DNA from: Acidobacteriota bacterium | GTDB taxonomy: Bacteria; Acidobacteriota; Thermoanaerobaculia; Gp7-AA8 | Direction: 5' to 3' | Length of the DNA stretch: 64,000 bases | Assembly: GCA_003223645.1 (NCBI GenBank) | Contig: QHVT01000003.1 | Location: forward strand, 620,001-684,000 | Shown: in pieces, positions 18,501 to 48,205 of the stretch | Layout of the letters: every line of letters starts with the position of its first letter | Numbering within the stretch: position 1 is the first letter of the stretch | The notes under the pieces: generated by a model | What the model saw: only the letters and a program-made list of their open reading frames with translations | Databases searched by the model: none | Told to the model about the DNA's origin: nothing | Made by a program: the position numbers and the translations under genes

Positions 18501-18644
18501 CCGGGTGTGAACAATCGCGGCGACTGGGGACGCTGGGCCTTCACCGAGATGGGGGACTTTTGGACGATGGAAATGGACTTCGCGGCGAAAGTCGAGCAGC
18601 GCTTCAACGACATGGTGGGCGCTGCGGCGGGTGAGGGGCGCTGA
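15582..18644 (+). CDS. Type III-like restriction endonuclease subunit (DEAD-type helicase + nuclease)
   Basis: A 1020-residue restriction subunit resembling the BPTD_3080 group. It has superfamily 2 helicase motifs in order: Walker A ATGAGKTT at 173-180, DEAH at 310-313 (INDEAHHCY), SAT at 368-370 (DLSATPFF), and motif VI EQVIGRALRRQ near 650. A PD-(D/E)xK-type nuclease lies at the C-terminus: YRPDFIVLVDD then HLVVEIKGY (about 930-955). It should translocate on or loop DNA and cleave unmodified DNA with its methyltransferase partner, encoded 5 bases downstream. The 159 bases between tRNA-Thr and this start hold no gene. Confidence 0.9.
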   Translation: MPESFFEKPILNSPYDYPAEHWELDETGQPTNHILTHRRPAKYITPIPKPKKQKQGQKALVFDEGRGISTEDQQYDPTPIINELRVHVDRWRKLKNPSQWNVTPETARLLQHWRSYAFNDVTPFFCQVEAVETAIWLTEVAPGTKVGRRFLELLRAANERSNPGLSRLALKLATGAGKTTVMAMLIAWQTINAVRRVNSKHFTRGFLIVTPGLTIKDRLRVLRPNDPDSYYRTRELVPPDMLQDLDRAKIIITNYHAFKLRETLEVSRGTRALLKGRTGDEIQTLETEGQMLQRVLPELMGMKNVLAINDEAHHCYREKPDAEAADEEPLKGEEKEEAERNKEAARLWISGLEAVDRKLGLQHVFDLSATPFFLRGSGYAEGTLFPWTMSDFSLMDAIECGIVKLPRVPVSDNIPGNQAPLYRNLWEHIRADMPRKGRGKAGKLDPMRLPVELQTALEALYGHYKETFELWAKANVAVPPCFIVVCNNTSASKLVYDYIAGFEYPEDENGRTPSPYLGKFELFRNYDEYGNKLPRPRTILIDSEQLESGEGLDEKFRDVAADEIDRFRRERLDQTGDRLAAEDVTDQELLREVMNTVGKKGELGESIRCVVSVSMLTEGWDANTVTHVLGVRAFGTQLLCEQVIGRALRRQSYDLNEQRLFNVEYADVLGIPFDFNAKPVVVSPQPPRETIHVHAVVPDRDGCEIRFPRVEGYRVELPEEKLTANFTPDSTFVLRPDMVSATHTLNQGIVGEGVELTLAHTADVRRSTILYHLTTHLLLKKWRDAGDEPRFSLFGQLKRITREWLNNHLVCMGDTYPAQVLYREFADVACEKITAAITRGHASERPIQAILDPYNPAGSTRHVTFTTSKRSRWQTDPRRCHVNWVVLDSDWEAEFCRVAEGHPRVRAYVKNHGLGFEVPYQFGGESHKYRPDFIVLVDDGRGDGDLLHLVVEIKGYRYENAKEKKSTMETYWVPGVNNRGDWGRWAFTEMGDFWTMEMDFAAKVEQRFNDMVGAAAGEGR

Positions 18645-18649
18645 AGACG

Positions 18650-21430
18650 ATGGCAAAAAAAGGGAAGACGCTGAAGCAGGTAGAGACGCTCAAGCAAGAA
18701 GCGTCGCGCAAGAACATCCCGACCGCGGAATACGAGTCGCTGATCGAGAAAGAGAGCCAGACCCCGGTGCAGGTGGCGTACGAGCGCCGCAACCGCGATC
18801 TCGACCCCCAGCTGGTCTGGCGAGGGAAGGACGAGCAGGACTGGTCCGATCTCGTCGTCCCCGCGCCGCCGCTGTACATCCAGGAAAAAGTGCACCCGAA
18901 GGTGCTCATCGACGACCTGCTCAAGCGGACCAGCGAGAGCGATTCGAAACAGGCCGGCGCCAACTTCGATTTGTTCGCAGACTTCAACGGCCTGCCGAGC
19001 GCCGAGGCGCGGACGGAGTTCTACCAGCACGACCAGAATTGGTCGAACCGAATGATCCTCGGCGATTCATTGCAGGTCATGGCCAGCCTCGCGGAGCGCG
19101 AGGGGCTGCGGGGGAAGGTGCAGTGCATCTATTTCGACCCGCCGTATGGGATCAAGTTCAATTCGAACTTTCAGTGGTCGACGACCAGTCGCGACGTGAA
19201 GGATGGCGCGGCCGAGCATATTACGCGTGAACCGGAACAGGTGAAGGCGTTTCGGGATACGTGGCGGGATGGGATTCATTCGTATTTGACGTATTTGCGC
19301 GATCGGCTGGCGATAGCGCGAGATCTACTGTCGGATTCCGGATCAATATTTGTGCAGATCGGATCGGAGAATGTTCACAGAGTTCGCGCTCTGCTCGATG
19401 AAGTCTTTGGTGATGGCAACTTCGCGTCGTTGATAACATTTCAAAGCACAACCGGGCTGGGAACAGTCGGTCTATCGCCGTCAGGGGACTACATTCTCTG
19501 GTATTACAAAGACCGAAGTCAGGCAAAGTACCGCTCGCTCGTATTTAGGAAAGCCGATCGTGGAGGTTTCGACTATTACGCATACGTCAGAGATGAAAGT
19601 GGCAGAATGTGGCGTGGTGATGACGTTGAGATCCGATCGGGTCAGTATGAATTATTTTTCCCGGATAATTTGGTCAGTCAGCGACCGCTAGGCGAAGGTG
19701 ATCTGAAAGAGTTTGGATGGAAAGGTACGCTGTTTCGTCCAGGCAAAGGAACATTCAAGACCGATCTTGTAGGATTGGAGCGTCTCGGTAAAGCCAATCG
19801 GCTGTGGGAATCGAGTGGCAAGATCCTTAGGTACGTCAGGATGGCGACCGACTATCCCGTCGTCGCAATGCATAACCTGTGGACTGATACCAGCACTGGA
19901 AGCTTTACTGAAGCGAAGGTCTATGTCGTACAAACGAACTCTAAAGTCATAGAGCGATGCATCTTGATGACAACTGATCCAGGCGATCTAGTGCTTGATC
20001 CCACCTGCGGTTCTGGAACGACAGCGACAGTCGCAGAACAATGGGCTCGCCGTTGGATCACCATCGACACCTCGCGCGTTGCACTCGCACTCGCCCGCGC
20101 TCGCATCATGGGTGCCCGCTATCCCTATTACCTTCTAGCCGACTCGCGTGGAGGACAAACAAAGGAAGCAGAAATCACGCGCAAGCCCCCTCCCTCCAAG
20201 CCCGTCCACAACAATATCCGTCACGGTTTCGTCTACGAGCGCGTTCAGCATATCACTCTGAAGTCGATCGCCAACAATGCGGAGATCGACGTCATTTGGG
20301 AGAAATGGCAGCAGGAGCTCGAGCCGTTGCGCGAGAAACTCAACGCCGCACTGACCCAGCAATGGGAGGAATGGGAGATTCCGCGCGAGGCGAATGCAAA
20401 GTGGGATGTGCAGGCGCGCAACTATCACGCTCAATGGTGGGCGGCGCGTATCTCGCGGCAGAAGGAGATCGACGCTTCGATCATCGCAAGGGCGGAGTTC
20501 GAGTATCTCTACAACGAGCCGTATCAGGATACCAAAAGGGTTCGCGTCGCCGGTCCCTTCACCGTGGAGAGCCTCTCGCCGCACCGCGTTCTCGGCGTCG
20601 ACGAGAACGATGAGCTGATCGACAGCCTTACCGACAAGCGTACGGGCTACGAGGGGAAGCGCGATTTCCCGTCCATGATCCTCGACAACCTTCGCACGGC
20701 CGGAGTGCAACAGGCTCACAAGGAAGACCGCATCACTTTTACGGCGCTGACGCCATGGCCGGGCAGGTACATCTGCGGGGAAGGACGTTACGTCGAAGGT
20801 GAATCGGGAGCCGAGCGCCGCGCCGGCATCTTCATCGGCCCGGAATTCGGCACAGTTCTTCGCGCCGATCTCGTCGTCGCTGCGCGTGAGGCGGCTGATG
20901 CCGGTTTCGACGTCCTCATCGCCTGCGCATTCAATTACGAGGCGCACACCACCGAATTCGCGAGGCTCGGCAGCGTCCCCGTTCTGAAGGCGCGCATGAA
21001 TGCCGATCTCCACATGTCCGAGGATCTCAAGAACACCGGGAAGGGTAATCTCTTCGTCATCTTCGGAGAGCCCGATATCGACGTCGTCGACGTGGACAAC
21101 GATCAAATCAAAGTCAAGATCAACGGCGTCGACGTCTTTCATCCCAGCAGCGGCAAAGTCGAAAGCTCCGGTCCCGAGGGCATCGCCTGCTGGTTCATCG
21201 ACACCGACTACAACGAGGAAAGCTTCTTCGTCCGCCACGCCTACTTCCTCGGCCAGAACGATCCCTACAGCGCCCTCAAGACGACGCTGAAAGCGGAAAT
21301 CAACGAGGAAGCATGGTCGACTCTCAACAGCGACACCTCGCGCCCATTCCCGAAGCCGGCGAACGGCCGGATCGCGGTCAAAGTCATCAATCATCTCGGT
21401 GATGAGGTGATGAAGGTGTTCCGCGTATGA
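18650..21430 (+). CDS. Site-specific DNA methyltransferase (type III-like Mod), mosaic gene
   Basis: A 926-residue beta-class amino-methyltransferase: motif IV DPPYG at 163-167 precedes the SAM-binding motif DPTCGSGTT near 447. It should modify adenine or cytosine-N4 in the site cut by its restriction partner. The segment between the two motifs, where target recognition lies, has lower G+C (two 60-base lines I counted, 19381-19440 and 19621-19680, are 48% and 42%) than the flanks (about 60%). The change is fairly sharp, near 19260 and 20040, which suggests replacement of the recognition domain. A long C-terminal part (about 530-926) follows. It overlaps the next gene by 4 bases. Confidence 0.92.
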   Translation: MAKKGKTLKQVETLKQEASRKNIPTAEYESLIEKESQTPVQVAYERRNRDLDPQLVWRGKDEQDWSDLVVPAPPLYIQEKVHPKVLIDDLLKRTSESDSKQAGANFDLFADFNGLPSAEARTEFYQHDQNWSNRMILGDSLQVMASLAEREGLRGKVQCIYFDPPYGIKFNSNFQWSTTSRDVKDGAAEHITREPEQVKAFRDTWRDGIHSYLTYLRDRLAIARDLLSDSGSIFVQIGSENVHRVRALLDEVFGDGNFASLITFQSTTGLGTVGLSPSGDYILWYYKDRSQAKYRSLVFRKADRGGFDYYAYVRDESGRMWRGDDVEIRSGQYELFFPDNLVSQRPLGEGDLKEFGWKGTLFRPGKGTFKTDLVGLERLGKANRLWESSGKILRYVRMATDYPVVAMHNLWTDTSTGSFTEAKVYVVQTNSKVIERCILMTTDPGDLVLDPTCGSGTTATVAEQWARRWITIDTSRVALALARARIMGARYPYYLLADSRGGQTKEAEITRKPPPSKPVHNNIRHGFVYERVQHITLKSIANNAEIDVIWEKWQQELEPLREKLNAALTQQWEEWEIPREANAKWDVQARNYHAQWWAARISRQKEIDASIIARAEFEYLYNEPYQDTKRVRVAGPFTVESLSPHRVLGVDENDELIDSLTDKRTGYEGKRDFPSMILDNLRTAGVQQAHKEDRITFTALTPWPGRYICGEGRYVEGESGAERRAGIFIGPEFGTVLRADLVVAAREAADAGFDVLIACAFNYEAHTTEFARLGSVPVLKARMNADLHMSEDLKNTGKGNLFVIFGEPDIDVVDVDNDQIKVKINGVDVFHPSSGKVESSGPEGIACWFIDTDYNEESFFVRHAYFLGQNDPYSALKTTLKAEINEEAWSTLNSDTSRPFPKPANGRIAVKVINHLGDEVMKVFRV

Positions 21431-22700: not shown

Positions 22701-23085
22701 GATCGTCGCGGACGAAGAGGATCTCGCAAGGATCCTTCGCTCTTCCGGACATTTCAGTACGACCGTAGTGAAAGGAGCCGCATTTCTTCCGGCGAAAGAC
22801 GGAATGACCTCTGTGATTCGCCACGGTGCTGAGCCCCGCCAGGAGCTGTGGAAATTAGCCAGGGCTTTTCTTGGCTCGGAAGTGAAGTTCCACGGCGCGG
22901 CAGTTTGCAAAGCCACTGTCGTCCGCGCCCAGCATCTGAATGTCGTCGCCGACGAACCGCCGCCGCGGCACGCAAACGTGGTCGAATGGCCGGTGCACGC
23001 CGACCCCGAATTGCAGAAAGCGCGACAGAAGGAGATCGCGCTGGTCATCGCTTCTCAGTCGGTTCTGGTGAAGGTCGAGGCATAG
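22669..23085 (+). CDS. Hypothetical protein in restriction-modification operon
   Basis: A 138-residue protein of unknown function. It begins inside the preceding gene (32-base overlap) and ends two bases before the RelE-UvrD fusion. No known motif was recognised. It contains a Thr/Ser strand-rich N-terminal half and the Trp-containing phrase NVVEWPVHADPELQKARQKE near its end. The tight overlaps argue for a shared role with the 179-residue protein. Confidence 0.7.
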   Translation: MSDPLPSGLPEIVADEEDLARILRSSGHFSTTVVKGAAFLPAKDGMTSVIRHGAEPRQELWKLARAFLGSEVKFHGAAVCKATVVRAQHLNVVADEPPPRHANVVEWPVHADPELQKARQKEIALVIASQSVLVKVEA

Positions 23086-23087
23086 CA

Positions 23088-25184
23088 ATGGACGTCCGAA
23101 TTGCCGACACCTTCACCGACAGCCTCGCCAAGCTCACGGGCGACGAGCAGAAGCTCGTCAAGACGACGGCGTTTGATCTGCAACTGAACCCCGCCAGTCC
23201 CGGGATGCAGTTTCATCGCATCAGCAAGTCGAAGGATACGAATTTCTGGTCGGTGCGCGTCGGCAGCGATCTGCGCCTCATCGTTCACAAGACCGCATCG
23301 AGTCTGATGCTCTGCTACGTCGATCATCATGACGCCGCGTACGCGTGGGCGGAGCGGCGGAAGATCGAACGGCATCCGCAGACGGGAGCGGCGCAACTTG
23401 TCGAAGTACGCGAGACGGTTCGAGAGATCGTCATTCCGAAGTACGTCGAAGCCGCGCCGCCGGCTGACGCGCCGAAGCCGCTCTTCACGGATGTTCCGGA
23501 ATGGGTATTCCTCAGTCATGGCGTGCCGCCGGAGTGGATCGGCGACGTCCGCGCTGCGACCGAGGAGACGCTGTTCGAGATTGCCGAGCATCTTCCGCGC
23601 GAGGGAGCAGAACTGTTGCTGAATCTCGCGACCGGCGCACCGCTCCCGCCCATCGCACTCGATCTGCCGCCTCACGTCGATGCGTTCGCGCACCCGCATG
23701 CGCAGCAGCGTTTCCGGGTGATCGAGAACGGCGAAGAGCTGGAGCGCGCGCTCGACGAGCCATGGGAGAAGTGGATCGTCTTCCTTCATCCCGCGCAACG
23801 GCAGTTGGTCGAACGGGAGTTCAACGGTCCTGCGCGTGTTGGTGGCTCGGCGGGAACGGGCAAAACCATCGTCGCGCTTCACCGCGCCGTGCATCTCGCG
23901 CGCACGCATGAAGACGCGCGGGTGCTGCTCACTACGTTCTCCGACACGCTCGCCAACGCACTTCGGTTGCGAATGCGGCTGCTGATCGGCAATCAGCCGC
24001 GGATCGCGGAACGTCTCGAAGTGCAGTCGATTCCCAGCATCGGGCGCCGTCTTTACACGGCTCACTTCGGAGCTCCGAGGCTCGCCTTGGAAGATGAGCT
24101 GCGGCGGATGCTCGCCGAAGCAGCCGCTTCGGCGAATGCCCACGGCTTCTCCGCCAATTTTCTCTGGAATGAATGGTCGATCGTTGCGGACGCGTGGCAG
24201 CTCGAGTCGTGGGAAATGTATCGCGACGTACAGAGGCTCGGACGCAAGACCCGCCTCGCAGAAAAGCACCGGATTCTGCTCTGGTCGATCTTTGAAGCAG
24301 TGCGCGCGAAGCTCGTCGATCGGAACCTGATCACGTCCGCCACGATGTTCCGGCGGCTTGCCGAGAAGGTGGCGCAGCTTCCGCGTCCCATCTTCGATTC
24401 CGTCATCGTGGATGAGGCACAGGATGTCGGTGTTCCCGAGCTCCGTTTCCTGGCGGCGCTCGGTGAAAGTCGTCCGAACGCGCTGTTCTTCACCGGAGAT
24501 CTCGGTCAACGAATTTTCCAGCAGCCGTTTTCCTGGAAGGAGCTCGGAGTCGACGTCCGAGGACGTTCGGCACGGCTGCGCGTCAACTACCGCACCTCTC
24601 ATCAGATTCGTTCGCGCGCCGATCGGTTGCTCGGCACGGAGCTTTCCGATGTCGACGGGATCACTGAAGAGCGAACAGGGACGATCTCCGTGTTTAACGG
24701 TGTCCTTCCTGTGGTGACGGCGGAGCAATCGGAAGGAAGCGAACAGCAGCGCGTCACCTCATGGCTCCGGCAACGCAGCAGCGAAGGATTACGGCCCCGC
24801 GAGATCGCGCTGTTTGTCCGCTCGAACGCCGAGATTCCGCGTGCCGAAGCGGCGGCGCGAGCGGCGAATGTCCCGTATGCCGTCCTGAGCGAGAAGATGG
24901 AAACGACGCAGGGCCAGGTCACGATCGCCACGATGCACCTTGCCAAAGGACTCGAATTTCGTGCTGTGGCGGTGATGGCTTGCGACGACGGCGTCATCCC
25001 GTTGCAGGAACGGATCGAAACAGTCGCCGAGGAGTCGGATCTGGAGGAGGTTTATCAGACCGAGCGTCACCTCTTGTACGTTGCCTGCACGCGCGCTCGG
25101 GATCACCTGCTCGTGACAGGCATAGCGCCGGGATCGGAGTTTCTGGATGACCTCCAGCAATCCGGCGCTTCAGCTACTGCCTAG
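23088..25184 (+). CDS. UvrD/Rep-type helicase fused to an N-terminal RelE-like domain
   Basis: A 698-residue fusion. Residues 1-95 look like the RelE/ParE toxin fold (MDVRIADTFTDSLAKLTGDE, later NFWSVRVGSDLRLIVHKT). The remainder is a superfamily 1 helicase: Walker A GGSAGTGKTIVALH near 253, DEAQDVGVP near 440, GDLGQRIFQ, TIATMHLAKGLEFRAVAVM near 610, and LLYVACTRARDHLLVTG near the end. The start follows the previous stop by two bases. The RelE part lacks an adjacent antitoxin gene and may serve in binding rather than as a free toxin. Position in the island suggests a defence or DNA-processing role. Confidence 0.88.
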   Translation: MDVRIADTFTDSLAKLTGDEQKLVKTTAFDLQLNPASPGMQFHRISKSKDTNFWSVRVGSDLRLIVHKTASSLMLCYVDHHDAAYAWAERRKIERHPQTGAAQLVEVRETVREIVIPKYVEAAPPADAPKPLFTDVPEWVFLSHGVPPEWIGDVRAATEETLFEIAEHLPREGAELLLNLATGAPLPPIALDLPPHVDAFAHPHAQQRFRVIENGEELERALDEPWEKWIVFLHPAQRQLVEREFNGPARVGGSAGTGKTIVALHRAVHLARTHEDARVLLTTFSDTLANALRLRMRLLIGNQPRIAERLEVQSIPSIGRRLYTAHFGAPRLALEDELRRMLAEAAASANAHGFSANFLWNEWSIVADAWQLESWEMYRDVQRLGRKTRLAEKHRILLWSIFEAVRAKLVDRNLITSATMFRRLAEKVAQLPRPIFDSVIVDEAQDVGVPELRFLAALGESRPNALFFTGDLGQRIFQQPFSWKELGVDVRGRSARLRVNYRTSHQIRSRADRLLGTELSDVDGITEERTGTISVFNGVLPVVTAEQSEGSEQQRVTSWLRQRSSEGLRPREIALFVRSNAEIPRAEAAARAANVPYAVLSEKMETTQGQVTIATMHLAKGLEFRAVAVMACDDGVIPLQERIETVAEESDLEEVYQTERHLLYVACTRARDHLLVTGIAPGSEFLDDLQQSGASATA

Positions 25185-25220: not shown

Positions 25221-26006
25221 ATGCTTCGCACCATCACCGCCACCGAATACGTGACGCCGCTGCGCGAGGGCGGCTCGTTGCCGGCCATCGTCGAAGGGGA
25301 TGACGACGGGACGTATGTCCTCAAGTTTCGCGGGGCGGGGCAGGGGGTGAAGGCGTTGATCGCGGAACTGGTGTCGGGGGAGCTGGCCCGGCTTCTTGGT
25401 CTGCGTGTGCCGGAGATCGTCTTCGCGAATGTCGATGAGCGGATGGCGAAGACGGAGCCGGATCCCGAGATCCAGGATCTGTTGCGCAAGAGTGTGGGGC
25501 TGAATCTCGCGCTCGACTATTTGCCGGGGTCCGTCACGTTCGATCCGCTCGTTGAGCGTGCGGCTGCCGTTGCGGGTCAGGCGCGGCTCGCGTCGTCGAT
25601 CGTGTGGCTCGATGCGCTGGTGACGAATGTCGATCGCACGGCGAAGAACACAAATCTGCTGATCTGGCATCGCGATTTGTGGCTGATCGATCATGGCGCG
25701 ACGCTGATCGTGCATCACTCCTGGAGCGGCGACCCGGGACGCGCGAAGAATCCGTTCCCGCAGATCCGCGATCATGTGTTGCTGCGATGGGCGAAGATGT
25801 TGCGCGAGGTGGATGAAGAGCTGACGGCGCTGCTCACGCGCGATGCGATCGAGCGCGTCGTGAAGTTGATTCCGGATTCGTGGCTCGAGGAGGATTCGGA
25901 TTTTCCCGGCGTCGCCGCGCACCGCGGCGCGTACGTCGACTATCTCGTGCGGCGACTGGAAGCACCGCGCGCGTGGCTGGAGGAGGCGGTTCGTGCACGC
26001 GTTTGA
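25221..26006 (+). CDS. HipA-like kinase family protein
   Basis: A 261-residue, short HipA-like protein. The N-terminal part has YVLKFRGAGQGVKALIAELV (nucleotide-binding strand and Lys). The catalytic region is VWLDALVTNVDRTAKNTNLL near residue 130, followed by LWLIDHGATL, matching the D..N.DR..KN.N and DFG-like elements. HipA proteins phosphorylate targets such as aminoacyl-tRNA synthetases. This short class is usually paired with DUF3037, as here, where the next gene overlaps by 14 bases. There is no HipB-like partner alongside, so a classic toxin-antitoxin role is uncertain. Confidence 0.8.
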   Translation: MLRTITATEYVTPLREGGSLPAIVEGDDDGTYVLKFRGAGQGVKALIAELVSGELARLLGLRVPEIVFANVDERMAKTEPDPEIQDLLRKSVGLNLALDYLPGSVTFDPLVERAAAVAGQARLASSIVWLDALVTNVDRTAKNTNLLIWHRDLWLIDHGATLIVHHSWSGDPGRAKNPFPQIRDHVLLRWAKMLREVDEELTALLTRDAIERVVKLIPDSWLEEDSDFPGVAAHRGAYVDYLVRRLEAPRAWLEEAVRARV

Positions 26007-26367
26007 CTACGCGGTCGTGCGGGTCGTTCCGCGCGTGGAGCGAGGGGAGTTCGTGAACGCCGGCGTGATTCTGTTCAGCCGCACGGCGCGGTTCCTCGAT
26101 GCGCGGATTGCGCTCGATGCCGCGCGTCTCGGCGCGCTGGCGCCGTCGATCGACTGCGAGGTGGTGCAGAGCTATCTCGACGCCATTCCTCGTATCTGTG
26201 CCGGTGGACCCGACGGCGGGCCGATCGGTCTGTTGTCGCAGAGCGAGCGGTTTCACTGGCTGGTGGCGCCGCGCAGCACGATCATTCAAACCTCGCCCGT
26301 GCATTCGGGCGTGCATGCCGATTTGCCCGCGGCGCTGGCGCATTTGTTCGAGAAGCTCGTGCGCTGA
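25993..26367 (+). CDS. DUF3037 family protein
   Basis: A 124-residue protein of the DUF3037 family: FDYAVVRVVPRVERGEFVNA, then GVILFSRTARFLDARI. It overlaps the HipA-like kinase gene, the arrangement usually seen for this family, which implies they act together as modulator and kinase. The biochemical role is not known. Confidence 0.85.
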   Translation: MHAFDYAVVRVVPRVERGEFVNAGVILFSRTARFLDARIALDAARLGALAPSIDCEVVQSYLDAIPRICAGGPDGGPIGLLSQSERFHWLVAPRSTIIQTSPVHSGVHADLPAALAHLFEKLVR

Positions 26368-28945: not shown

Positions 28946-29380
28946 TTATGACCAATCAAGGAGTCGAAGCTCGAGGTCCGACGCTTTTGATAGTCGCTCG
29001 AAGTCGCGCTTGTTTCTGGTCACGAGCGGAAGCTGGCGTGAGACGGCGATTGAAGCGATCAGAATGTCGCCGAGCTTCTGACGATCACGACGCGCAACCG
29101 CAGACCAGATATCGGCGGCCAGGCGGGCGGCTTCCTGGTCGAAGGGAAGCACGATGCAGTTGGCGACGAGCGCCTCGAAAGCCTGCATCTGCCGTTCGAA
29201 CGGCTTTCCGTCTCGGATCGCCACGCGATATCCGCGCAGCCGCTCGAACACCGTTACCGCGGTGATCGTCAGCCGCCCGAAGCCGGTCAGATATTCCAGC
29301 GCTCGTTTGCTGACTCGAGGGTTCCCCCGGCTCAGCTCCGACAACGTGTCGGTATCGAGTACGGCGAGCTCACGGTTCAT
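28946..29380 (-). CDS. PIN-domain toxin (VapC/FitB family)
   Basis: A 144-residue PIN-domain ribonuclease. The acidic residues of the active site are present: LAVLDTDTLSEL at the N-terminus (Asp9/Asp11), a mid-protein Glu in VFERLRG, LGDILIASIAV, and TRNKRDFERL. It would cleave RNA, often tRNA, when released from its antitoxin. I chose the ATG at 29380 because the domain begins there and the antitoxin gene ends four bases earlier. Part of a two-gene toxin-antitoxin operon. Confidence 0.9.
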   Translation of the reverse strand: MNRELAVLDTDTLSELSRGNPRVSKRALEYLTGFGRLTITAVTVFERLRGYRVAIRDGKPFERQMQAFEALVANCIVLPFDQEAARLAADIWSAVARRDRQKLGDILIASIAVSRQLPLVTRNKRDFERLSKASDLELRLLDWS

Positions 29381-29384
29381 CGAC

Positions 29385-29663
29385 TCAGCGTTCCCGCTCG
29401 CCGAGCTTTCGGGTGAGCAGATCGCGTTGCGAAGCTGGAACATCAGCGAGACTGGCAACCGCCAGTGCCAGGATCCCCGCCGGTCTCGGAGCGATATCGA
29501 CATCCTCGCCGTAATGCCGGCGCAGCAGGGCGATCACCTGTCCTTCGAAACTCCTGCCGCAGCGCTCCGCATCCGCGGCAATTCGCTTGCGAAGCGCAGC
29601 CGGGATGCGAATCGTGCGTGCAATCGTGGGTTCTGGCTGGTTGGTCGTGGCTCGCGGGCTCAT
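29385..29663 (-). CDS. Antitoxin, ribbon-helix-helix (FitA/Arc-like)
   Basis: A 92-residue antitoxin with an Arc-type ribbon-helix-helix, TIARTIRIPAALRKRIAADA and GRSFEGQVIALLRRHYG, followed by a C-terminal arm that should block the PIN toxin encoded four bases downstream. ATG at 29663. A TATTAT box lies only six bases upstream of the ATG, inside a small dyad, so the mRNA may be nearly leaderless and self-repressed through this site. No Shine-Dalgarno is visible. Confidence 0.85.
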   Translation of the reverse strand: MSPRATTNQPEPTIARTIRIPAALRKRIAADAERCGRSFEGQVIALLRRHYGEDVDIAPRPAGILALAVASLADVPASQRDLLTRKLGERER

Positions 29664-29718
29664 ACCAAAATAATACCAGATTGGTGCTGAGTCTCCTCCA
29701 GCCTGCCGCCGGCGTCGA

Positions 29719-30498
29719 TCACTCGTTGATCGGCGGGGCGTCGTGAGCCGCGTCCTCTCGGAGCGACTTGGACGCGCGCGCCAAAAGCGGCGGCGGCTGC
29801 CAGGCATCGAATTCTGCCGGCAGCAGGCGAAGGATCTCCTCGGCGCGCATTCCGTAGAGGTCGTAGTTGAAGTCGAGCTGTTGGATGACGGTGATCAGGC
29901 GGTGCAGGTTTCCGGGACGCGTTTCCGTCGTCGCTCCGCGTTTCGGTGCGTTGCGTTTCGCGTCCCAGTAGAGGAGATCGATCGCTTCGACGAGGCCTTT
30001 GTTGGTGACGAGATCGCGGCGGGCGCCGAGCTGGTAGACGAACGCTCCGTGCTGGTGGACCGGCGGGTGGAGGAGCAGCCGCGCATGTTCGCGGTGCATG
30101 GCGAAGAGTTTGTACGGGCCGGCGAGCAGATGCCGCTCGCGATGCCATCCGTTGTCCGTTGACGGGATGTAGTGATAGTCCTCGCGCGGACGGCGCCGTC
30201 CCTCGTCGTCGACGGGTGAGAGCTGATCGAAGTAGAAGAGCGCGAGCCAGCTCCAGAGTCCGATGTCGTCCGTGTCCGCGCCGGCGTTCAACAGGATGTG
30301 GTGAAGATATTCGGCCGCTTCGAATTTGCTCGCAAAGGTTCGCGGCGCAATTTCGATCGGATGCTGCAGACGCGTCGAGTAGTCATCGACATAGAGCACC
30401 GCCGGACTCCCGCCGAATTCGGCGCCGTCGCGGATCTGCTGGAGGAAACCGCGGAACGCCGCGATACCTTTCGTGTTGAGAGAGCGCAGCGCGGTCAT
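29719..30498 (-). CDS. Unknown protein, third gene of GHKL-ATPase module
   Basis: A 259-residue soluble protein of unknown function. The ATG at 30498 overlaps the stop of the preceding gene (ATGA). Notable segments are SKFEAAEYLHHILLNAG and DDIGLWSWLALFYFDQLSP near residues 75-110, DYHYIPSTDNGWHRERHLLA near 125, and a His-rich LLHPPVHQHGAF near 160, then a helical C-terminus. The Trp/His-rich middle could be a binding or catalytic site, but no family motif is recognised. It always reads as the partner of the two genes upstream in this operon. The PIN toxin-antitoxin pair follows after 55 bases. Confidence 0.75.
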   Translation of the reverse strand: MTALRSLNTKGIAAFRGFLQQIRDGAEFGGSPAVLYVDDYSTRLQHPIEIAPRTFASKFEAAEYLHHILLNAGADTDDIGLWSWLALFYFDQLSPVDDEGRRRPREDYHYIPSTDNGWHRERHLLAGPYKLFAMHREHARLLLHPPVHQHGAFVYQLGARRDLVTNKGLVEAIDLLYWDAKRNAPKRGATTETRPGNLHRLITVIQQLDFNYDLYGMRAEEILRLLPAEFDAWQPPPLLARASKSLREDAAHDAPPINE

Positions 30499-31253
30499 GT
30501 GCTCTCCGCACGTGTCGCGCGCCAGCGGTCGATCGTTGCCTGCTCGTCGCAGAACGCGGCGACGGCTTCGTCGATCCAGAACGCGGCTTCTTCCGGGTCG
30601 CCCGGCAGCGGCGTGCTCGAAAAGCGTGCCGCCCATCGCAGCCAGAGGTTCCACCACTCGTCGCCTTCTTCATGCACGTCGTGCTCGTCGACGAGGAGGA
30701 TCTGCGTGAGGACGAGGCGGACGGCGGCGGGATACACGAGGGCGAAGAATGCGGCATCGCGTTTGGCGACGTCTTTCACGTTCTCGATGCGGTTGTTCAG
30801 CTCCAGCACGGGACCGGTGGACTCGAATGCGATGCGCCACGCCTGCTGGCCGAGGGCGTCGCTGAAGTTCACGGGGAGCAGCGGCACGCGTCCTGCGGAT
30901 TGCGGCGTCTCCTCGGAGACGAGCAGTTCGTCGGCCACGGCGATGACGCGATGATCGTTGTGGCTGTTGTCGACGATTTTCACGCGGAAGCGCACGAGGC
31001 TCGTGCGGTCGATGTCCGTGAGCCGGCGATCTTCCGGCGGCGAGAACGCATCCACCGATCCGCAATCGAAACGCATGAAGGACGTCCGGTAGTAGGCCTC
31101 GATGAACACGCGCGCGTCCGGCACGACGTCGATGCCGTCGAAGGAGAGTTGCGGATCGAAGACGAGCGTGCCGCTGTCGTCGCGCCGAAGCGTGATCCGC
31201 ACGTGCGTGCGCGGGACTTTGACGCGCTCAGTGAAGTTCAGTTTCCGCAGCAT
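30495..31253 (-). CDS. Unknown protein, second gene of GHKL-ATPase module
   Basis: A 252-residue soluble protein. The first about 130 residues look beta-rich (VKVPRTHVRITLRRDDSGTL; VFIEAYYRTSFMRFDCGSVD). The second part is helical and Trp-rich (EEGDEWWNLWLRWAARF). No known motif. Its start lies inside the GHKL gene (26-base overlap) and its end overlaps the next gene by four bases. This degree of overlap on both sides implies a stoichiometric complex or at least obligate co-expression. Confidence 0.75.
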   Translation of the reverse strand: MLRKLNFTERVKVPRTHVRITLRRDDSGTLVFDPQLSFDGIDVVPDARVFIEAYYRTSFMRFDCGSVDAFSPPEDRRLTDIDRTSLVRFRVKIVDNSHNDHRVIAVADELLVSEETPQSAGRVPLLPVNFSDALGQQAWRIAFESTGPVLELNNRIENVKDVAKRDAAFFALVYPAAVRLVLTQILLVDEHDVHEEGDEWWNLWLRWAARFSSTPLPGDPEEAAFWIDEAVAAFCDEQATIDRWRATRAEST

Positions 31254-33138
31254 CGCCGGCGTCGATCACGCGCACGACGAGGTCGCGCCGCGGATCGAAT
31301 CCTTTCATGGAGATCTGAAACTTCGCCGCGGTCGGAACGAGGTCGAACGCATTGACGGAAGTGGCACGCAGGCTCGCGCCCTCCATCTGTACGCTGATCT
31401 CGCTGCCGGACGTCAGGTCGAAATCGAAGGGACTGTGTTTCCGAAACGGGTTTCCCGCGCGGACGCGGTACGCGACTTCACCGCGCAGCGGCCGGCCGAT
31501 CATGGCCGCGTCGGCGGCTTTGATGGTGAAGCCGCCGGCGACCCTGGCGATCGTGACGCGGCTGCCGCCCGGAGCTCCTCCCGATCCCGTGCCGTGGCCG
31601 CTCGTTCCGCCGGCGGATGCGCGGACCGGAATGCGCGCCGCCGCCGTTTCGTGCGCAGTCTCGTCGGGCAGCTCGATCGAGAAGACATCGGCGAGGAAGT
31701 CGCGCACGCGTCCGACCGGCGGCCGGGCCAGCAATGAAGCGAGAAAGGACGCGCTGTTTTTCACGAGGCGAAGCGTGGACGCGCCATGGTCGTAATGCGT
31801 GCGGATCTTGTCGGCGCGCTCGGACCAGTCGGAATGCGCCGGGTTCTCGGCATCGCCGAGGAAGGTGGAGAGGTTGTGGTCGTCGACGACGATCAGCGCG
31901 CGCGCCGGCTTGTCGCTGCTGATGCGAATGTCGGGAATGGTGATCCCGCGGCGGATGAAATGGTGCTCGGCTTTGCGCAGCGAGTCGTCCTGCTCGAGAT
32001 AGACATCGAAGGATGCGCTTGCGGGACGCGCACGTTTGCGTTTCACGAGGATCGGAACTCGAAACGCCAGGCGCTCGCCGGACGCGAAGCGTTCGCGGAG
32101 CCGAGCGAGATCGCGTGTGTCGATGACGCTCTCATCCCACTTCGGCGCGGCCGTGCCGCGTTCGGCGAGCACGATGCGCTGCTCGTCCTGTTGCGCGAGA
32201 GACCAGCGCGTCAGTTCGCAGAGACGTGCGACGCTCGAACCGGCTGTGAAGAGCTGGTTGATGGTGTCGGGCGCGATGCGTTGCGTGCGCGCGCCGTCGA
32301 CGACGTCGACGACGAGATCACCGCGCAGAATCGGATAGAAATACTGTTCGAGGATCGACTCCGTCAGGCGTTCGAGCGAGAGCTCGTCGTCGCGGTAATA
32401 CGGGACGACGACGGAGAGGCCGGCCTCGGTACGATCGACTCCGAAGTCGTCGGCGAAGCGTTCGAGGAGCATCGGGTCTTCGATGGGAAGCGGCAGGCCG
32501 TTGCGTTTCTCGTGGCGCGCGAAGAAGCCGTAGGGATAGACCCGCTCGCCGTCGAGGATGTGAGTTTTCAGCACGGATTGGCCGAGGAGCAGCACGCGAT
32601 CGTCATCGGCGCGGCGCGTGATGCCGAAGACCGTGCGGATGCGCGACGCGACGGTGAACACGGCCTTGCCGAGTCCCCATCGGCCGCGATCGATCTCGCC
32701 CTTGTTCGATCGCCCGACGTTGCGCCAGAAGTAGAAGAAGTCGTTGCGCTCGTCGGTCGAGGGGGTGAGCTCCGGATCGACGTACGGATCGCCGGTGAGG
32801 CCGCGCGTGCCGAAGTCTTCGATGAGGAGGTACGGCACCGCTTCATCGGGCCGCGGCAAATCGGAGTGAATCGTTTTCGCGACCGCGTGGAGGTGCGGCT
32901 CGAGGCCGTCGAAGTACTGCCGCACCGCGTCCGGATGAAGTGCATGCGTTCCGGACGCGAAACGAAAGCGCACGCGAACGGGTGAGCGGCTGCGCCGCGC
33001 GTCGAGGGAATTCTGGATCGACTCGCGGACGAGCGCATCGGCGAGATCCTGCGCCTTGAAGAATTCGTCGTGGACCGGATCGACCTGCACTTCCCCCGGA
33101 TCCATGGCGCGGAAATGCCAGAGGGGGAAACGGGACAT
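31228..33138 (-). CDS. GHKL (HSP90-like) ATPase domain protein
   Basis: A 636-residue protein with an N-terminal Bergerat-fold ATPase: N-box LADALVRESIQNSLDARR near residue 35, G1-like box IEDFGTRGLTGDP near 105, and a glycine-rich lid box RGRWGLGKAVFTVASR near 150. The rest (about 200-636) has alternating beta and helical segments, a Gly-rich linker near 550 (GGTSGHGTGSGGAPGG) and a C-terminal beta domain. The opening FPLWHFRAMDPGEVQVDP and HDEFFKAQDLADAL look like a family signature. I chose the ATG at 33138; 33147 is equally possible. It is the first gene of a tightly overlapping three-gene unit, likely a nucleic-acid or chaperone-like switch in defence (inference). Confidence 0.8.
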   Translation of the reverse strand: MSRFPLWHFRAMDPGEVQVDPVHDEFFKAQDLADALVRESIQNSLDARRSRSPVRVRFRFASGTHALHPDAVRQYFDGLEPHLHAVAKTIHSDLPRPDEAVPYLLIEDFGTRGLTGDPYVDPELTPSTDERNDFFYFWRNVGRSNKGEIDRGRWGLGKAVFTVASRIRTVFGITRRADDDRVLLLGQSVLKTHILDGERVYPYGFFARHEKRNGLPLPIEDPMLLERFADDFGVDRTEAGLSVVVPYYRDDELSLERLTESILEQYFYPILRGDLVVDVVDGARTQRIAPDTINQLFTAGSSVARLCELTRWSLAQQDEQRIVLAERGTAAPKWDESVIDTRDLARLRERFASGERLAFRVPILVKRKRARPASASFDVYLEQDDSLRKAEHHFIRRGITIPDIRISSDKPARALIVVDDHNLSTFLGDAENPAHSDWSERADKIRTHYDHGASTLRLVKNSASFLASLLARPPVGRVRDFLADVFSIELPDETAHETAAARIPVRASAGGTSGHGTGSGGAPGGSRVTIARVAGGFTIKAADAAMIGRPLRGEVAYRVRAGNPFRKHSPFDFDLTSGSEISVQMEGASLRATSVNAFDLVPTAAKFQISMKGFDPRRDLVVRVIDAGDAAETELH

Positions 33139-33182
33139 GGCCGGCATTGTAAGGGAGTCGTGCGGAACATCGGCTTTCGGCG

Positions 33183-33243
33183 CCGAGGAGAGCGGGCGTC
33201 CCGCCCGCCCCCGGGAGGCGGGCAGGATGCCCGCTCTCCTCGG
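33183..33243. repeat. Palindromic element, family C, copy 1 (intergenic)
   Basis: CCGAGGAGAGCGGGC and its inverse GCCCGCTCTCCTCGG enclose a second GTCCCGCCCGCC/GGCGGGCAGGA pairing. It lies between the SNF2 helicase and the GHKL gene on the same strand. It matches 46719-46779 almost exactly (61 bp each). Confidence 0.9.
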
Positions 33244-33281: not shown

Positions 33282-36200
33282 TTACGACAACAGCATCTCC
33301 AGGTCCTCCACCTCCAGCCGCCGCAGCACGCTGTTGTCTTCCGACAAAATCGAATCCGCGAGCTCGCGTTTTCGCGCTTGCAGCTCGAGGATCTTTTCTT
33401 CGACGGTGTCTCGTGCGATGAGGCGGTAGGCGACGACCGGTTTTTGGCGGCCGATGCGGTGGGCGCGGTCGATGGCCTGGGCTTCGACGGCGGGGTTCCA
33501 CCAGGGGTCCAGGAGGAAGATGTAGTCGGCGTTGGTGAGGTTGAGTCCGAGGCCGCCGGCTTTGAGGCTGATCAGGAAGAGCGGCGGGCCGTCGTCGCTC
33601 TGGAACTGTTCGACGAGCGATTGGCGGTCGCGCGTTTTTCCGTCGAGATAGAGGTAGTCGAGGCCGTCGCGGTCGAGCGCGCCGCGGATGATTGACAGGA
33701 ACGAAGTGAATTGCGAGAAGACGAGCGCGCGATGGCCGGACTCGATGACGTCGAGCAGTTCGTTCATCAAGAGGTCGCTCTTCGCGCTTTCGGCGTCGTA
33801 ACTCGGATCGATGAGTGCGGGATGGCACGCGGCCTGGCGCAGGCGCAGCAGCGCCTCGAGGATCTGCATGCGCGACTTCTCGATGCCGCCTTTGCGGATG
33901 CGGCCGAGGAGCGCCTGGCGGTAGTGGTCGCGCAACTCGTCGTACTGTTTTTTCTGCATCCCTTCGAGCTCGCAGTAGATCGTCTGTTCGGTGCGCGCGG
34001 GCAATTCGGGCGCGACTTGTTCCTTCGTGCGCCGCAGGATCAGCGGACGCAGTGCGCGTGCGAGTGCTTCGCGACGCTCGGGCGGCGTCGTCTTCGCGGC
34101 GAACGTGCGGCTGAACGAGCGCGCCGATCCGAGGAGGCCGGGATTGAGAAACTCGAACAGGCTCCACAACTCGCCGAGATGATTCTCGATCGGCGTGCCG
34201 CTCAACGCGAGGCGATGTTTTGCGCGCAGGAGGCGGCTCGCTTTCGCGACCTGACTCGATGCGTTCTTGATCGCCTGCGCTTCGTCGAGGATGACGTATT
34301 CGAATTCCGTTTCGGCGAGGCGCGCGACGTCGAGACGCATCGTCGCGTACGTCGTGAGGACGACGTCGTAGCCCGCGAAGTCGTTCTTCGTCCGCTCGGT
34401 CCCGTGATGTTCGAGCACGCGCAGCTGCGGCGCGAATCGTTTCGCTTCCGCGGCCCAGTTGAAGAGCAGGGATCGCGGCGCGACGACGAGCGACGGCCGC
34501 GTGTTGCCGCTCGCGCGCAGTTCTTCGAGCAGCGCGAGCGCCTGCACGGTCTTGCCGAGTCCCATGTCGTCGGCGAGACATCCGCCGAGTCCGAGGTTGC
34601 GCAGGAAGTCGAGCCATCCGAGACCGGCGCGTTGATACGGACGAAGCGACGTGGTGAGTGTCGGCGGTTCCTGGCGCGGAACCGGCGCCGCGTCGATGAG
34701 CCGTTGCCGCAGGTCCGCGAACGCGTTGTCTGTCTTTTGCAGCTTCGACTGCAGCAGTGCGTCCACGAGCAGCGCCTGCGTCGATCGAAATCGAACCGAC
34801 GCGCCTTCGCGTTTTCCGAGATCGAGCACCGGCGCGAGCGCGTCCGTCCACGACGTCGGGACGATGCCGTACGAGCCGTCGGCCAGGCGCAACAGCGATC
34901 GCTTCGCTTCCGAGGCGGCGAGCAGCTCCGGGAGCGCCAGGCGCACGTCGCCGAAGCTCGCACGCGCGTCGAGGTCGAACCAGTCGATGCCGCTCGTGAT
35001 CTCGACGTCGAAGTCGTCCGCGACGCGCACGGGCGCGGAGTCGATCTCGATCTTCCATCCTTCCGAGGACAGCGTCCGGGCGAGCTCCTCGAGTTGCGTC
35101 AGGCGGACGCGATAGCCGTCCCAGGTCGCGACGGCTTGCGACGCGCCGAGGCGGTCGCGATATCGATTTTCGTTCGTGCGGTCGCGCCGGATCAGTTTGC
35201 GGCCGACCGTCTTCTGCGTTTCCGTCGACCGGCTGGAGACGCGCCAGTCGTCGTATTCGAACAGCAGATCTCCGTGCAGCTCGCTGCCCCAGCTGTCGTG
35301 CATGAGCGCGAGCACGGGCTGCGGTCTCACGTCGACGACACTCCACCCGAGCTCCTCGGGGAGCGTGACGTTCGCCATCGGCGTCCGCAGCAATGCCGTG
35401 CGAAACCGCTCGTTGTCCGCGTGTGGAATTTCGATCAAGCCGTTCGCGCGCAGCACATTCAGCCAGCCCAGGCAGTCGCCTGTGTCGACGCGGCTGGCGC
35501 GGCCGCCGCTGAAGAGAATGTCGTTGGCGAGCGCGTCGATCCGCTCGAGCGGCAGCGTTTCGTTCTCGCGCGCAACCGAGGCGGTGACGCGATATTTCGA
35601 CCGTGCGGCGTCGTTGACGACGGCGATTTCGAGCCGCCACGGCGGTCCGTCATCCCAGGTGATCGGATGCAGATCTCCGTCGCGATGGCCCGAGTACAGC
35701 TTGCCGGCGCGCGCCAGTCTCTCGATCCACCAACTCGTCGTCGCCGACGAAATCGACGCGATCGCGTCCAGGACATCGCTGTACGTTCGCTGCTGCAGCA
35801 GCGCGAGAGTCTCGCGATCGAACGGCGACAGGCGAGGCAGGTCGGTGAGGCGCAGCGAGATGCGCTTCCACTTGCCCCATTCGCCGCCCTTTTTGCGCGA
35901 GCGGCCGAGGATCTCGAAGGAGAGGCCGTACGCATGAATCCCCGGATTGATGACATAGGCGATCTCGTCCGGGACGTTGCGTGCCGCGGAGTCGCGCGAC
36001 TGCGGTGGTTGCCCGACCGCCTCGATCAGGCGTTGCCACTGCGGCCGTTCGTCGCGATGCGTCCGCGCGGGCCGAAGCTGCTGCGCGACGAATTCTCCTT
36101 CGTCGTCTTCATCCTCGTCGAACGCCGGCTCGTAAGGATCGTCGACGATCAGGTACAGCTCTCGTTCCGGCAGAAGACCCTTCGCGAAGGCGGCACGCAC

Positions 36201-36446
36201 GGCCGCCCAGATGTGCTTGCAGACTTCGAGCTGGCCTTCGAACCACGGGCATTGGCATTGGACGGTGAGATCGTCGTCCACCAGCGTGAGCTGGACGTCG
36301 TACAGCTGCGTGCCCTGCACCTCGGCGTCGATCAGCCCGTCGCCGTTATCAACGATGCTCCGTACGCGCCCCTGCACGAAATAGTCGTCGCCGCGCTTGA
36401 GACTTCCGGGCGATATGAGACGGCGAAGCACCTCTTCCGCGCGCAC
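33282..36446 (-). CDS. SWIM zinc-finger SNF2-family helicase
   Basis: A 1054-residue SNF2-type ATPase. An N-terminal SWIM finger, CQCPWFEGQLEVCKHIW near residue 60, is followed by a long middle region. The helicase core comes next: DDMGLGKTVQALALLEEL (Walker A near 605), LDEAQAIKNASSQ, ALSGTPIENHLGELW, QFTSFLSIIRGALDRDGL and QAIDRAHRIGRQKPV (motif VI). Such proteins remodel protein-DNA complexes and are common in soil bacteria, sometimes beside defence genes. I chose the GTG at 36446. The frame is open further to 36809, but that part overlaps an opposite-strand gene and lacks family character. Confidence 0.88.
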   Translation of the reverse strand: MRAEEVLRRLISPGSLKRGDDYFVQGRVRSIVDNGDGLIDAEVQGTQLYDVQLTLVDDDLTVQCQCPWFEGQLEVCKHIWAAVRAAFAKGLLPERELYLIVDDPYEPAFDEDEDDEGEFVAQQLRPARTHRDERPQWQRLIEAVGQPPQSRDSAARNVPDEIAYVINPGIHAYGLSFEILGRSRKKGGEWGKWKRISLRLTDLPRLSPFDRETLALLQQRTYSDVLDAIASISSATTSWWIERLARAGKLYSGHRDGDLHPITWDDGPPWRLEIAVVNDAARSKYRVTASVARENETLPLERIDALANDILFSGGRASRVDTGDCLGWLNVLRANGLIEIPHADNERFRTALLRTPMANVTLPEELGWSVVDVRPQPVLALMHDSWGSELHGDLLFEYDDWRVSSRSTETQKTVGRKLIRRDRTNENRYRDRLGASQAVATWDGYRVRLTQLEELARTLSSEGWKIEIDSAPVRVADDFDVEITSGIDWFDLDARASFGDVRLALPELLAASEAKRSLLRLADGSYGIVPTSWTDALAPVLDLGKREGASVRFRSTQALLVDALLQSKLQKTDNAFADLRQRLIDAAPVPRQEPPTLTTSLRPYQRAGLGWLDFLRNLGLGGCLADDMGLGKTVQALALLEELRASGNTRPSLVVAPRSLLFNWAAEAKRFAPQLRVLEHHGTERTKNDFAGYDVVLTTYATMRLDVARLAETEFEYVILDEAQAIKNASSQVAKASRLLRAKHRLALSGTPIENHLGELWSLFEFLNPGLLGSARSFSRTFAAKTTPPERREALARALRPLILRRTKEQVAPELPARTEQTIYCELEGMQKKQYDELRDHYRQALLGRIRKGGIEKSRMQILEALLRLRQAACHPALIDPSYDAESAKSDLLMNELLDVIESGHRALVFSQFTSFLSIIRGALDRDGLDYLYLDGKTRDRQSLVEQFQSDDGPPLFLISLKAGGLGLNLTNADYIFLLDPWWNPAVEAQAIDRAHRIGRQKPVVAYRLIARDTVEEKILELQARKRELADSILSEDNSVLRRLEVEDLEMLLS

Positions 36447-36584
36447 GGCAGCGGAAACGACGAGTGGGCGGAGACGATTCCTGAGGGTGTGTAAGGGTCT
36501 CTCGCGCTTCGAGAATTCGCCCCGGCGTCGAGGCGCTGCAGCGCTTCTTCGCGCCAGCCGCTGCGCCCGAAGTAAAATTGGTTT

Positions 36585-36902
36585 GTGCAAGATCACCAAG
36601 CCATCGATCGTCGCAGTCTCGAAATGGCGCGGCAAATCGTCGCGAAGATCGATGCCGATCCGCGGCGTGAAGGACTCGAGCACGCGAAGCGCGTATGCAC
36701 CCGCTGGGTCGAGCGGGGCAACGTGCCCGCAAGAGAATGGATCGCGATTCTGCAGCGGCCGTGGGCCGAGATTCGTCGAATCTTGCTCGACGATTCCGAA
36801 GAATCGCAAAGGTTGAGGCAGAACGACCCCTTCTGCGGAATCCTCTCGCCGGCCGAGCGGTGGGAGATTTACAGGGAAGCGCAGCGTCGTGAAGCGCGGT
36901 GA
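36585..36902 (+). CDS. Small hypothetical protein
   Basis: A 105-residue charged protein of unknown function (RRSLEMARQIVAKIDADP, then HAKRVCTRWVERGNVPAREW and LSPAERWEIYREAQRREAR). An in-frame TAA four codons upstream limits the start to the GTG at 36585 or the ATG at 36624. The sequence is helical and has the feel of a conserved accessory protein, possibly a toxin-antitoxin or nucleotidyltransferase partner, but I cannot name the family. It is divergent from the SNF2 gene and convergent with the BNR protein gene. Confidence 0.6.
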   Translation: MQDHQAIDRRSLEMARQIVAKIDADPRREGLEHAKRVCTRWVERGNVPAREWIAILQRPWAEIRRILLDDSEESQRLRQNDPFCGILSPAERWEIYREAQRREAR

Positions 36903-46707: not shown

Positions 46708-48205
46708 GTCTTCCCGCACCGAGGAGAGCGGGCGTCCCGCCCGCCCCCCGGAGGCGGGCAGGATGCCCGCGCTCCTCGGCGTGAGGGGAAAGGGTGGCCG
46801 AAGGCCGGGTGAGGGGCTGTCATTTCGGCAACTCGTCGCGCTCGTCTCCCTTTTCCTTGTCACCTGCGCGACGCGTCCGCCGGCTCACTCTGACGATGCG
46901 CTGCTGGACGACGTTCAGCAGCGCACCTTTCATTTTTTCTGGGACCTCGAGGATCCCGGCACGCACCTGATTCCGGACCGCGCGCCGACGCCGTCGTTTT
47001 CCAGCATCGCCGCCGTCGGGTTCGGCCTGACAGCGTACGGAATCGGCGCGGAGCGCGGCTTTGTGACGCGCGACGAGGCCGCGCAGCGCACGCTGGCGAC
47101 GCTGCAGTCGCTGCTGGCGATGAAACAGGGGCCGGAGCCGCGCGGCGTGTCCGGCTACAAAGGATTCTTCTACCACTTCCTCGACATGAAGACGGCCGAG
47201 CGCTTTCAGACCGTCGAATTGTCGACCGTCGACACGTCGCTGCTCATTGCGGGCGCGTTATTCGCGCAATCGTATTTCGATCGCGACAATCCGACGGAAA
47301 AAGCGATTCGCGAGGCGGCGGAGCAGTTGTACGAGCGCGTCGAATGGCCGTGGGAACAGATCCGCGCGAATGCGATCAGCATGGGCTGGACGCCGGAGCA
47401 GGGATTTCATACATACGACTGGCGCGGCTACAACGAAGCCATGATCGTCGTGATCCTCGCCCTCGGCTCGCCGACGCATCCCGTCGATCCTTCCGCGTGG
47501 GCCGAGTATCACAAGACCGATCGTCGCGGTACGTTTTACGGACAGCAGCACATCCTCTTTGCCCCGCTGTTCGGCCATCAATACTCGCAGGTCTGGATCG
47601 ATTTCCGTGGTATTCGCGACAAGGTCAACCTCGATGTCGATTATCACGAGAACTCGCGCCGCGCGACGCTCGCGCAGCACGCGTACGCAATCGAAAACCC
47701 GCAGCAATATCGCGATTACGGCCCGAATATCTGGGGACTGACCGCCTGCGACGGCCCGATGGACGCGACCGTCACGATCGACGGCCGCGCGCGTACGTTT
47801 CATTCCTACACCGCACGCGGCGCCACCGAAGGCGACATTCGCGACGACGGAACCATTGCGCCGACGGCGGCCGTGTCGTCGATCGCGTTCACACCGGAAA
47901 TTGCGATTCCAGCAATCCGCGAAATGAGCACCCGCTACGGCGAAAATCTCTACACAAAATACGGCTTCCTCGATGCGTTCAATCCGACGTTGCGCACGAC
48001 CGACGAGCTGAAACACGGCCGCGTCGACCCGCAACAAGGCTGGTTCGACATCGACTACCTCGGCATCGACGAAGGGCCGATCATCGCGATGATCGAGAAT
48101 TACCGCAGCGGGCTGGTGTGGAACACGATGAAGAAGAATCCGCATGTTGTGCGGGGGCTGAAACGGGCGGGATTTACAGGCGGTTGGTTGGGTAAGAGCG
48201 AATGA
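46673..48205 (+). CDS. PF10091 glucoamylase-like / GH144-type beta-glucanase
   Basis: A 510-residue exported enzyme with the (alpha/alpha)6 fold of COG5368/PF10091, which includes GH144 endo-beta-1,2-glucanases. Segments: LLDDVQQRTFHFFWDLEDPG, SIAAVGFGLTAYGIGAERGF, GYKGFFYHFLDM, TVDTSLLIAGALF, TPEQGFHTYDWRGYNEAM and YGPNIWGLTACDGP. The first about 50 residues are repeat-derived (two stacked palindromes) and precede the hydrophobic LVALVSLFLVTCA. Start options are the ATG at 46673 (GAAGGA upstream) or a GTG at 46782 directly before the signal peptide. The stop overlaps the next gene (ATGA). Confidence 0.88.
   Translation: MRMHLPFRDSSPSSRTEESGRPARPPEAGRMPALLGVRGKGGRRPGEGLSFRQLVALVSLFLVTCATRPPAHSDDALLDDVQQRTFHFFWDLEDPGTHLIPDRAPTPSFSSIAAVGFGLTAYGIGAERGFVTRDEAAQRTLATLQSLLAMKQGPEPRGVSGYKGFFYHFLDMKTAERFQTVELSTVDTSLLIAGALFAQSYFDRDNPTEKAIREAAEQLYERVEWPWEQIRANAISMGWTPEQGFHTYDWRGYNEAMIVVILALGSPTHPVDPSAWAEYHKTDRRGTFYGQQHILFAPLFGHQYSQVWIDFRGIRDKVNLDVDYHENSRRATLAQHAYAIENPQQYRDYGPNIWGLTACDGPMDATVTIDGRARTFHSYTARGATEGDIRDDGTIAPTAAVSSIAFTPEIAIPAIREMSTRYGENLYTKYGFLDAFNPTLRTTDELKHGRVDPQQGWFDIDYLGIDEGPIIAMIENYRSGLVWNTMKKNPHVVRGLKRAGFTGGWLGKSE
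46719..46779. repeat. Palindromic element, family C, copy 2 (in PF10091 gene)
   Basis: 61 bp, nearly identical to 33183-33243. It is read in frame (EESGRPARPPEAGRMPALLG) ahead of the signal peptide if the ATG at 46673 is used. Confidence 0.9.

Follow-up and report, generated by a model that had tools for sequence, protein, structure and literature searches.

Analysis of the window, the whole stretch of 64,000 nucleotides examined here, revealed three overlapping genes on the minus strand, referred to as A, B and C. Gene A (31228-33138) encodes a GHKL-type (Bergerat-fold) ATPase of 636 amino acids that is paraMORC2-like and related to the PDC-M33A model of PADLOC; 21 diverse homologues were aligned with it. 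Gene B (30495-31253) encodes a protein of 252 amino acids without a known family, with a predicted Ig/fn3-like N-terminal sandwich and a helical C-terminal part, and gene C (29719-30498) encodes a remote DUF6339/PDC-M33C homologue of 259 amino acids, mostly helical in a low-confidence prediction. Genes A and B overlap by 26 bases (31228-31253), an overlap that recurs in related metagenome-assembled genomes (L002, L003 and L005), and B and C overlap by four bases (30495-30498), indicative of translational coupling. The coordinates and overlaps given in the original prediction proved exact to the base. The window has a GC content of 63.5% and long spurious open reading frames are frequent there. 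A, B and C are true genes, since orthologues elsewhere show the same order and overlaps and the dN/dS ratios against the nearest orthologue are 0.20 (A), 0.27 (B) and 0.26 (C); all three are under purifying selection. The host is an acidobacterial genome of 6.4 Mb whose closest matches are Thermoanaerobaculia metagenome-assembled genomes, and gene A is present in it as a single copy.

Conservation of motifs in A was assessed in an alignment of 22 sequences, the window protein and its 21 homologues, with identities down to about 20%. The Bergerat-fold boxes noted in the original prediction are all present and read ESIQNSLDAR (N box), EDFGTRGL (G1) and RGRWGLGK (G2). In the N box (VRESIQNSLDAR, residues 37-48, 32995-33030, minus strand) E39 and D46 were found in 22 of 22 sequences and N43 in 21; in the G1 box (DFGTRG, residues 108-113, 32800-32817, minus strand) D108 was found in 21 and G113 in all 22; and G152, G155 and G157 of the G2 box (RGRWGLGK, residues 151-158, 32665-32688, minus strand) are invariant (22/22). 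Outside the ATP site, two further features are invariant in all 22 sequences: R396 (31951-31953, minus strand), likely the basic residue of a second, putatively S5-like domain, and an ExxxH motif, E431-H435 (ENPAH, 31834-31848, minus strand). The latter is followed by a tryptophan, W438, in 20 of the 22 sequences.

Searches with A found no Pfam match (E<=0.1), no NCBIfam match and no solved-structure relative at the sequence level. PADLOC gave a match to PDC-M33A (E=3.2e-26), chiefly over the GHKL part (residues 25-282). In a tree of the 22 A proteins the window type (10 rows) forms its own clade (support 100/99), apart from the clade of PDC-M33 plasmid proteins. The ExxxH motif is reported as the mark of paraMORC2 ATPases from restriction-modification (R-M) operons (Iyer et al. 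2008, PMC2292703). As the GHKL boxes are combined with an invariant ExxxH as described by these authors, A is most likely, judged by its sequence, a paraMORC2 protein or a close kin of this group. The motif of MORC proper, GhXhhpXXRhl, was not found, its counterpart in A being GITIPDIRIS without the arginine at its place.

For B, a structure was predicted with AlphaFold2 from an input of only four sequences. The mean pLDDT is 65 overall and about 70-92 over residues 11-110, and the model comprises an N-terminal beta sandwich (approximately residues 9-119) followed by a helical C-terminal tail. The predicted sandwich resembles Ig/fn3-like domains (best Z 9.8 over 97 residues, rmsd 2.6), a common and usually non-catalytic fold that says little on function. 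B gave no PADLOC match to PDC-M33B at E<=1 and the profile-profile comparison was not significant; a weak local hint (E=0.006) came from a single comparison, and identity of B with PDC-M33B is not claimed here. The predicted structure of C (pLDDT 43) was unusable, and C matched neither the PDC-M33C model of PADLOC nor the DUF6339 model of Pfam directly. Comparison of the profile of 12 window-type C proteins with that of 11 divergent C proteins gave probabilities of 91% (local, E=1.1e-6) and 96% (global), against 0.1-0.2% for deliberately wrong pairings. In Arthrobacter, the counterparts of the three proteins match PDC-M33A, PDC-M33B and PDC-M33C, respectively, and the C protein belongs to Pfam DUF6339. 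By profile comparison, the window-type C is a remote homologue of DUF6339/PDC-M33C. A weak ribosomal L29 hit of C looked like chance and was discarded. B and C gave no hit to a nuclease or toxin domain in searches of Pfam, NCBIfam, PADLOC and PDB sequences, and no nuclease motif was identified in A, B or C by family searches (PADLOC, Pfam and NCBIfam).

Loci were collected with profiles of all three proteins. The order A-B-C is kept in about 23 loci from Acidobacteriota, Alphaproteobacteria, Actinomycetota, Deinococcota and Bacillota, which rules out a lack of linkage and bears out the co-occurrence of the three genes. Twelve of these loci are of the window type: the window itself, L002 (genome G008), L003 (G007), L005 (G013), L027, L028, L029, L030, L031, L035, L036 and L042, the last a Rhizobium leguminosarum plasmid. 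The other 11 have more divergent B and C proteins. Four of them are acidobacterial (L032, L033, L061 and L062), with B assigned by position only, and seven are plasmid loci, from Arthrobacter (L043), Paenarthrobacter (L064), Deinococcus (L065), Priestia (L066), Ligilactobacillus (L067), Lactococcus (L068) and Planococcus (L069). Gene A is confined to about 3-4% of the Acidobacteriota genomes, mostly as a singleton. Broken or partial remnants of the cassette are common: A is truncated in L004, carries an internal deletion in L034 and is interrupted by a stop in L028, and C occurs without A or B in L037-L039. No window-type relatives were found in the viral contigs or phages searched. Patchy spread, plasmid carriage and decay fit the pattern of defence genes. 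Upstream of A, the plasmid PDC-M33 loci carry a conserved protein of 62-77 amino acids with the motif GNLxNxxNYxYS (L043:5699-5926, L064:5812-6000, L065:6744-6974, L066:6641-6871 and L069:3854-4087); no PADLOC model matches this protein, and the window lacks it.

According to PMC11811056, the PDC systems are unpublished candidates that stem from Payne et al. 2021, and PDC-M33 is represented in PADLOC-DB by models PDLC04582-04587. PDC-M33 and the window cassette share three genes of about equal sizes in A-B-C order, a homologous A and a remotely homologous C. They differ in that the window B is not detectably related, the window C lies below the detection of the PADLOC and Pfam models, the small upstream gene is lacking and A falls in a separate clade. 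The cassette cannot be called as PDC-M33 by the PADLOC models because B and C fail. Thus the three proteins do not all match a named system strongly, A being matched and B unmatched, and the description of the module as unassigned holds for B but not for A, C or the layout, which is that of PDC-M33. ABC is a remote offshoot of a phage-defence candidate already catalogued, rather than an entirely new type of system. The literature searched contained no paper naming PDC-M33 or DUF6339 and no experiment with PDC-M33. Protection was not seen with two other PADLOC candidates that were tested elsewhere (PMC12409345).

In 17 of the 23 ABC loci a gene for DNA modification or restriction lies no further than about 10 kb away, mostly a 5-methylcytosine (5mC) methyltransferase with Vsr. 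Dcm and Vsr occur together at L029, L031, L033, L043, L065 and L069, and EcoRII with Dcm and Vsr at L030; a type II endonuclease accompanies Dcm at L064 and L066 (Sau3AI/Dcm in the latter), and Dcm was found at L061 and L042. The remaining neighbours are an AlwI endonuclease (L068), MmeI-like and N6 methylases (L067), type I genes read from sequence (L027 and L035), a PAPS-reductase-like gene with DUF262 (L062) and, in the window, a type III R-M system 8.3 kb from the cassette, its nearest R-M genes. Three of the six loci without such a neighbour lie on contigs shorter than 8.3 kb. Vsr within 5 kb of the cassette was found in four of 17 genomes against 0.05 expected under random placement from genome-wide counts (P(>=4)=1e-7), and Dcm in five of 17 against 0.07 expected (P(>=5)=2e-9); as the general clustering of defence genes inflates these values, they indicate association and not specific dependence. 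The R-M link may be partly a reflection of shared islands. C and Dcm share four bases in L033 and L061, so that ABC and Dcm form one predicted operon, and no endonuclease gene is visible nearby. These predicted operons, ABC-Dcm-Vsr (L033:8298-13564) and ABC-Dcm (L061:4462-9821), constitute natural minimal test systems.

No C5-methyltransferase was found in seven of the 17 carrier genomes (the window's, G012, G013, G224, G173, G067 and G459), several of which are incomplete drafts, and neither Dcm nor any other C5-methyltransferase nor Vsr was found in the window's genome. Strict 5mC dependence of the window copy was rejected on the content of its host genome, and given such carriers the window-type ABC does not seem to need 5mC, at least in these hosts. 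In two loci (L062:5869-13443 and L063:6056-11370) a distant A-B(-C) adjoins a PAPS-reductase-like (DndC-like) gene, with a cysteine desulfurase also present in L063 and a GmrSD/DUF262 gene in L062; a tie of these distant copies to sulfur-based DNA modification is possible.

The defence-rich surroundings described in the original prediction are real, as is the SWIM-SNF2 gene (33282-36809) flanking A on the same strand. The suggestion that this remodeller acts with the cassette did not hold: it accompanies the cassette only in the window's own family, where it also occurs alone. SNF2 as a fourth component was rejected, being absent from every ABC locus outside that family. Within the family it adjoins the cassette in the window only; in G012 it is divergent and 1.9 kb from the cassette, in G008 the distance is 12 kb, in G007 it sits on another contig, and G009 and G014 have SNF2 but not the cassette. 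The interval from A to SNF2 is filled by a GC-rich palindromic REP-like element (33170-33240), also seen at 46724-46774 and 49494-49514, whose 17-base core has 37 copies in the genome and none in the reversed control. Other neighbours include the type III R-M system (15582-21430; Res of 1020 and Mod of 926 amino acids, Mod being a very strong PADLOC MTase_III match) and a UvrD-like helicase with a long N-terminal extension (22848-25184), related to the GajB and NERD-UvrD models and previously labelled RelE-UvrD. A HipA_2-like kinase followed by a short partner (25221-26367) matches the PADLOC candidate PDC-M66A/B, and a VapC-like PIN toxin with a short ribbon-helix-helix-like antitoxin (28946-29684, minus strand) lies directly downstream of C.

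Comparison with described systems places the cassette close to paraMORC2 (PMC2292703), with which it shares an N-terminal GHKL domain in A, an invariant ExxxH motif further C-terminal and patchy occurrence. Dcm and Vsr neighbours, known from paraMORC2, occur in the wider ABC family; near the window's own copy the R-M genes are those of the type III system 8.3 kb away. Unlike paraMORC2, ABC has no constant superfamily II helicase or nuclease partner but the dedicated B and C instead, and the window copy lacks 5mC partners. VcSduA, a paraMORC3-type GHKL-nuclease fusion, is proven to be anti-phage and requires its ATPase residue (PMC12137116). A GHKL ATPase in a defence context is common to ABC and such Shedu proteins, whereas searches with A, B and C gave no DUF4263 or other nuclease domain. 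Mza/Z1 operons consist of a MutL-like ATPase, Z1 and PD-(D/E)xK; a more distant A homologue (L060) follows Z1 and DUF4420 genes, whereas neither gene was found near the window cassette. The proposal of an ATPase with two dedicated partners is borne out by the conserved A-B-C linkage in defence-rich surroundings. The proposal of an undescribed defence system stands in part: this branch is absent from the sources searched, yet it is related to the catalogued PDC-M33 and its kind was foreseen in 2008.

The reading we lean towards, with somewhat more confidence than doubt, is that ABC is a mobile, R-M-associated anti-invader module in which A serves as a DNA clamp gated by ATP, with B and C as obligate partners. 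By family analogy with MutL, MORC and topoisomerase ATPase modules, A would dimerise upon ATP binding and form a gate or clamp on DNA. B and C, most likely dedicated and apparently non-catalytic partners of this clamp, would recruit A to foreign-marked DNA (e.g. unmodified or freshly cut) or hold it there. The resulting complex might loop, block or hand over the foreign DNA, so that restriction by resident R-M systems would become more effective; an anti-phage outcome is suggested by the analogy with VcSduA. With no 5mC methyltransferase in its genome, the window copy would act alone or with other modification systems, e.g. the type III R-M 8.3 kb away.

Other explanations were weighed against the anti-invader module. 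ABC might itself be a restriction enzyme with a hidden metal-dependent nuclease, for example in the E431/H435/R396 region of A or in C, which would attack DNA without the host's own modification, with Dcm as its licence. The four-base coupling to Dcm in L033 and L061, the presence of ABC with Dcm and Vsr (L031 and L033) or with Dcm alone (L061) without a visible endonuclease, and the invariance of ExxxH and R396 off the ATP site all point this way. We nevertheless regard it as unlikely, given the true type II endonuclease beside ABC in six loci (L030, L043, L064, L066, L068 and L069), the seven of 17 carrier genomes, the window's included, without a C5-methyltransferase and the lack of any nuclease-family match in PADLOC, Pfam or NCBIfam. 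The stand-alone copies without nearby R-M in the window's family (L002 and L003), and defence neighbours of other kinds such as Shedu (L043) and AbiG (L068), would suit a self-contained abortive-infection guard, in which A would detect some phage process and, together with its two partners, halt the cell, the R-M systems being mere island neighbours. R-M adjacency is the rule, coupled operons included, and not one neighbour among others, and no toxin-like domain was found (PADLOC, Pfam and NCBIfam), which makes such a guard distinctly unlikely.

A housekeeping or repair factor without a defence role, mismatch-repair-like or chromosome-organising, is highly improbable: the GHKL plus S5-type ATPases do include MutL, and the Vsr neighbours hint at mismatch chemistry, but occurrence in a small minority of Acidobacteriota genomes, mostly as singletons, together with plasmid carriage and frequent decay, speaks against it. 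More tentatively than the anti-invader module as a whole, the window-type branch could be a form of self-sufficient DNA surveillance that has ceased to need a co-encoded modification enzyme, in which a GHKL clamp, a beta-sandwich protein and a DUF6339-like protein would recognise foreign DNA and neutralise it without a nuclease; we consider this conceivable though rather doubtful.

A prediction from 2008 cast the paraMORC-type ATPases as the engines of R-M systems and as kin to the ancestors of the eukaryotic MORC chromatin proteins, yet no tested example of a paraMORC2-type module was found in the literature searched. The A-B-C unit, as a minimal set with invariant residues to mutate, makes this prediction directly testable. 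Suitable material is offered by the natural minimal operons ABC-Dcm and ABC-Dcm-Vsr and by the mesophilic, plasmid-borne relatives in Lactococcus, Priestia and Arthrobacter.
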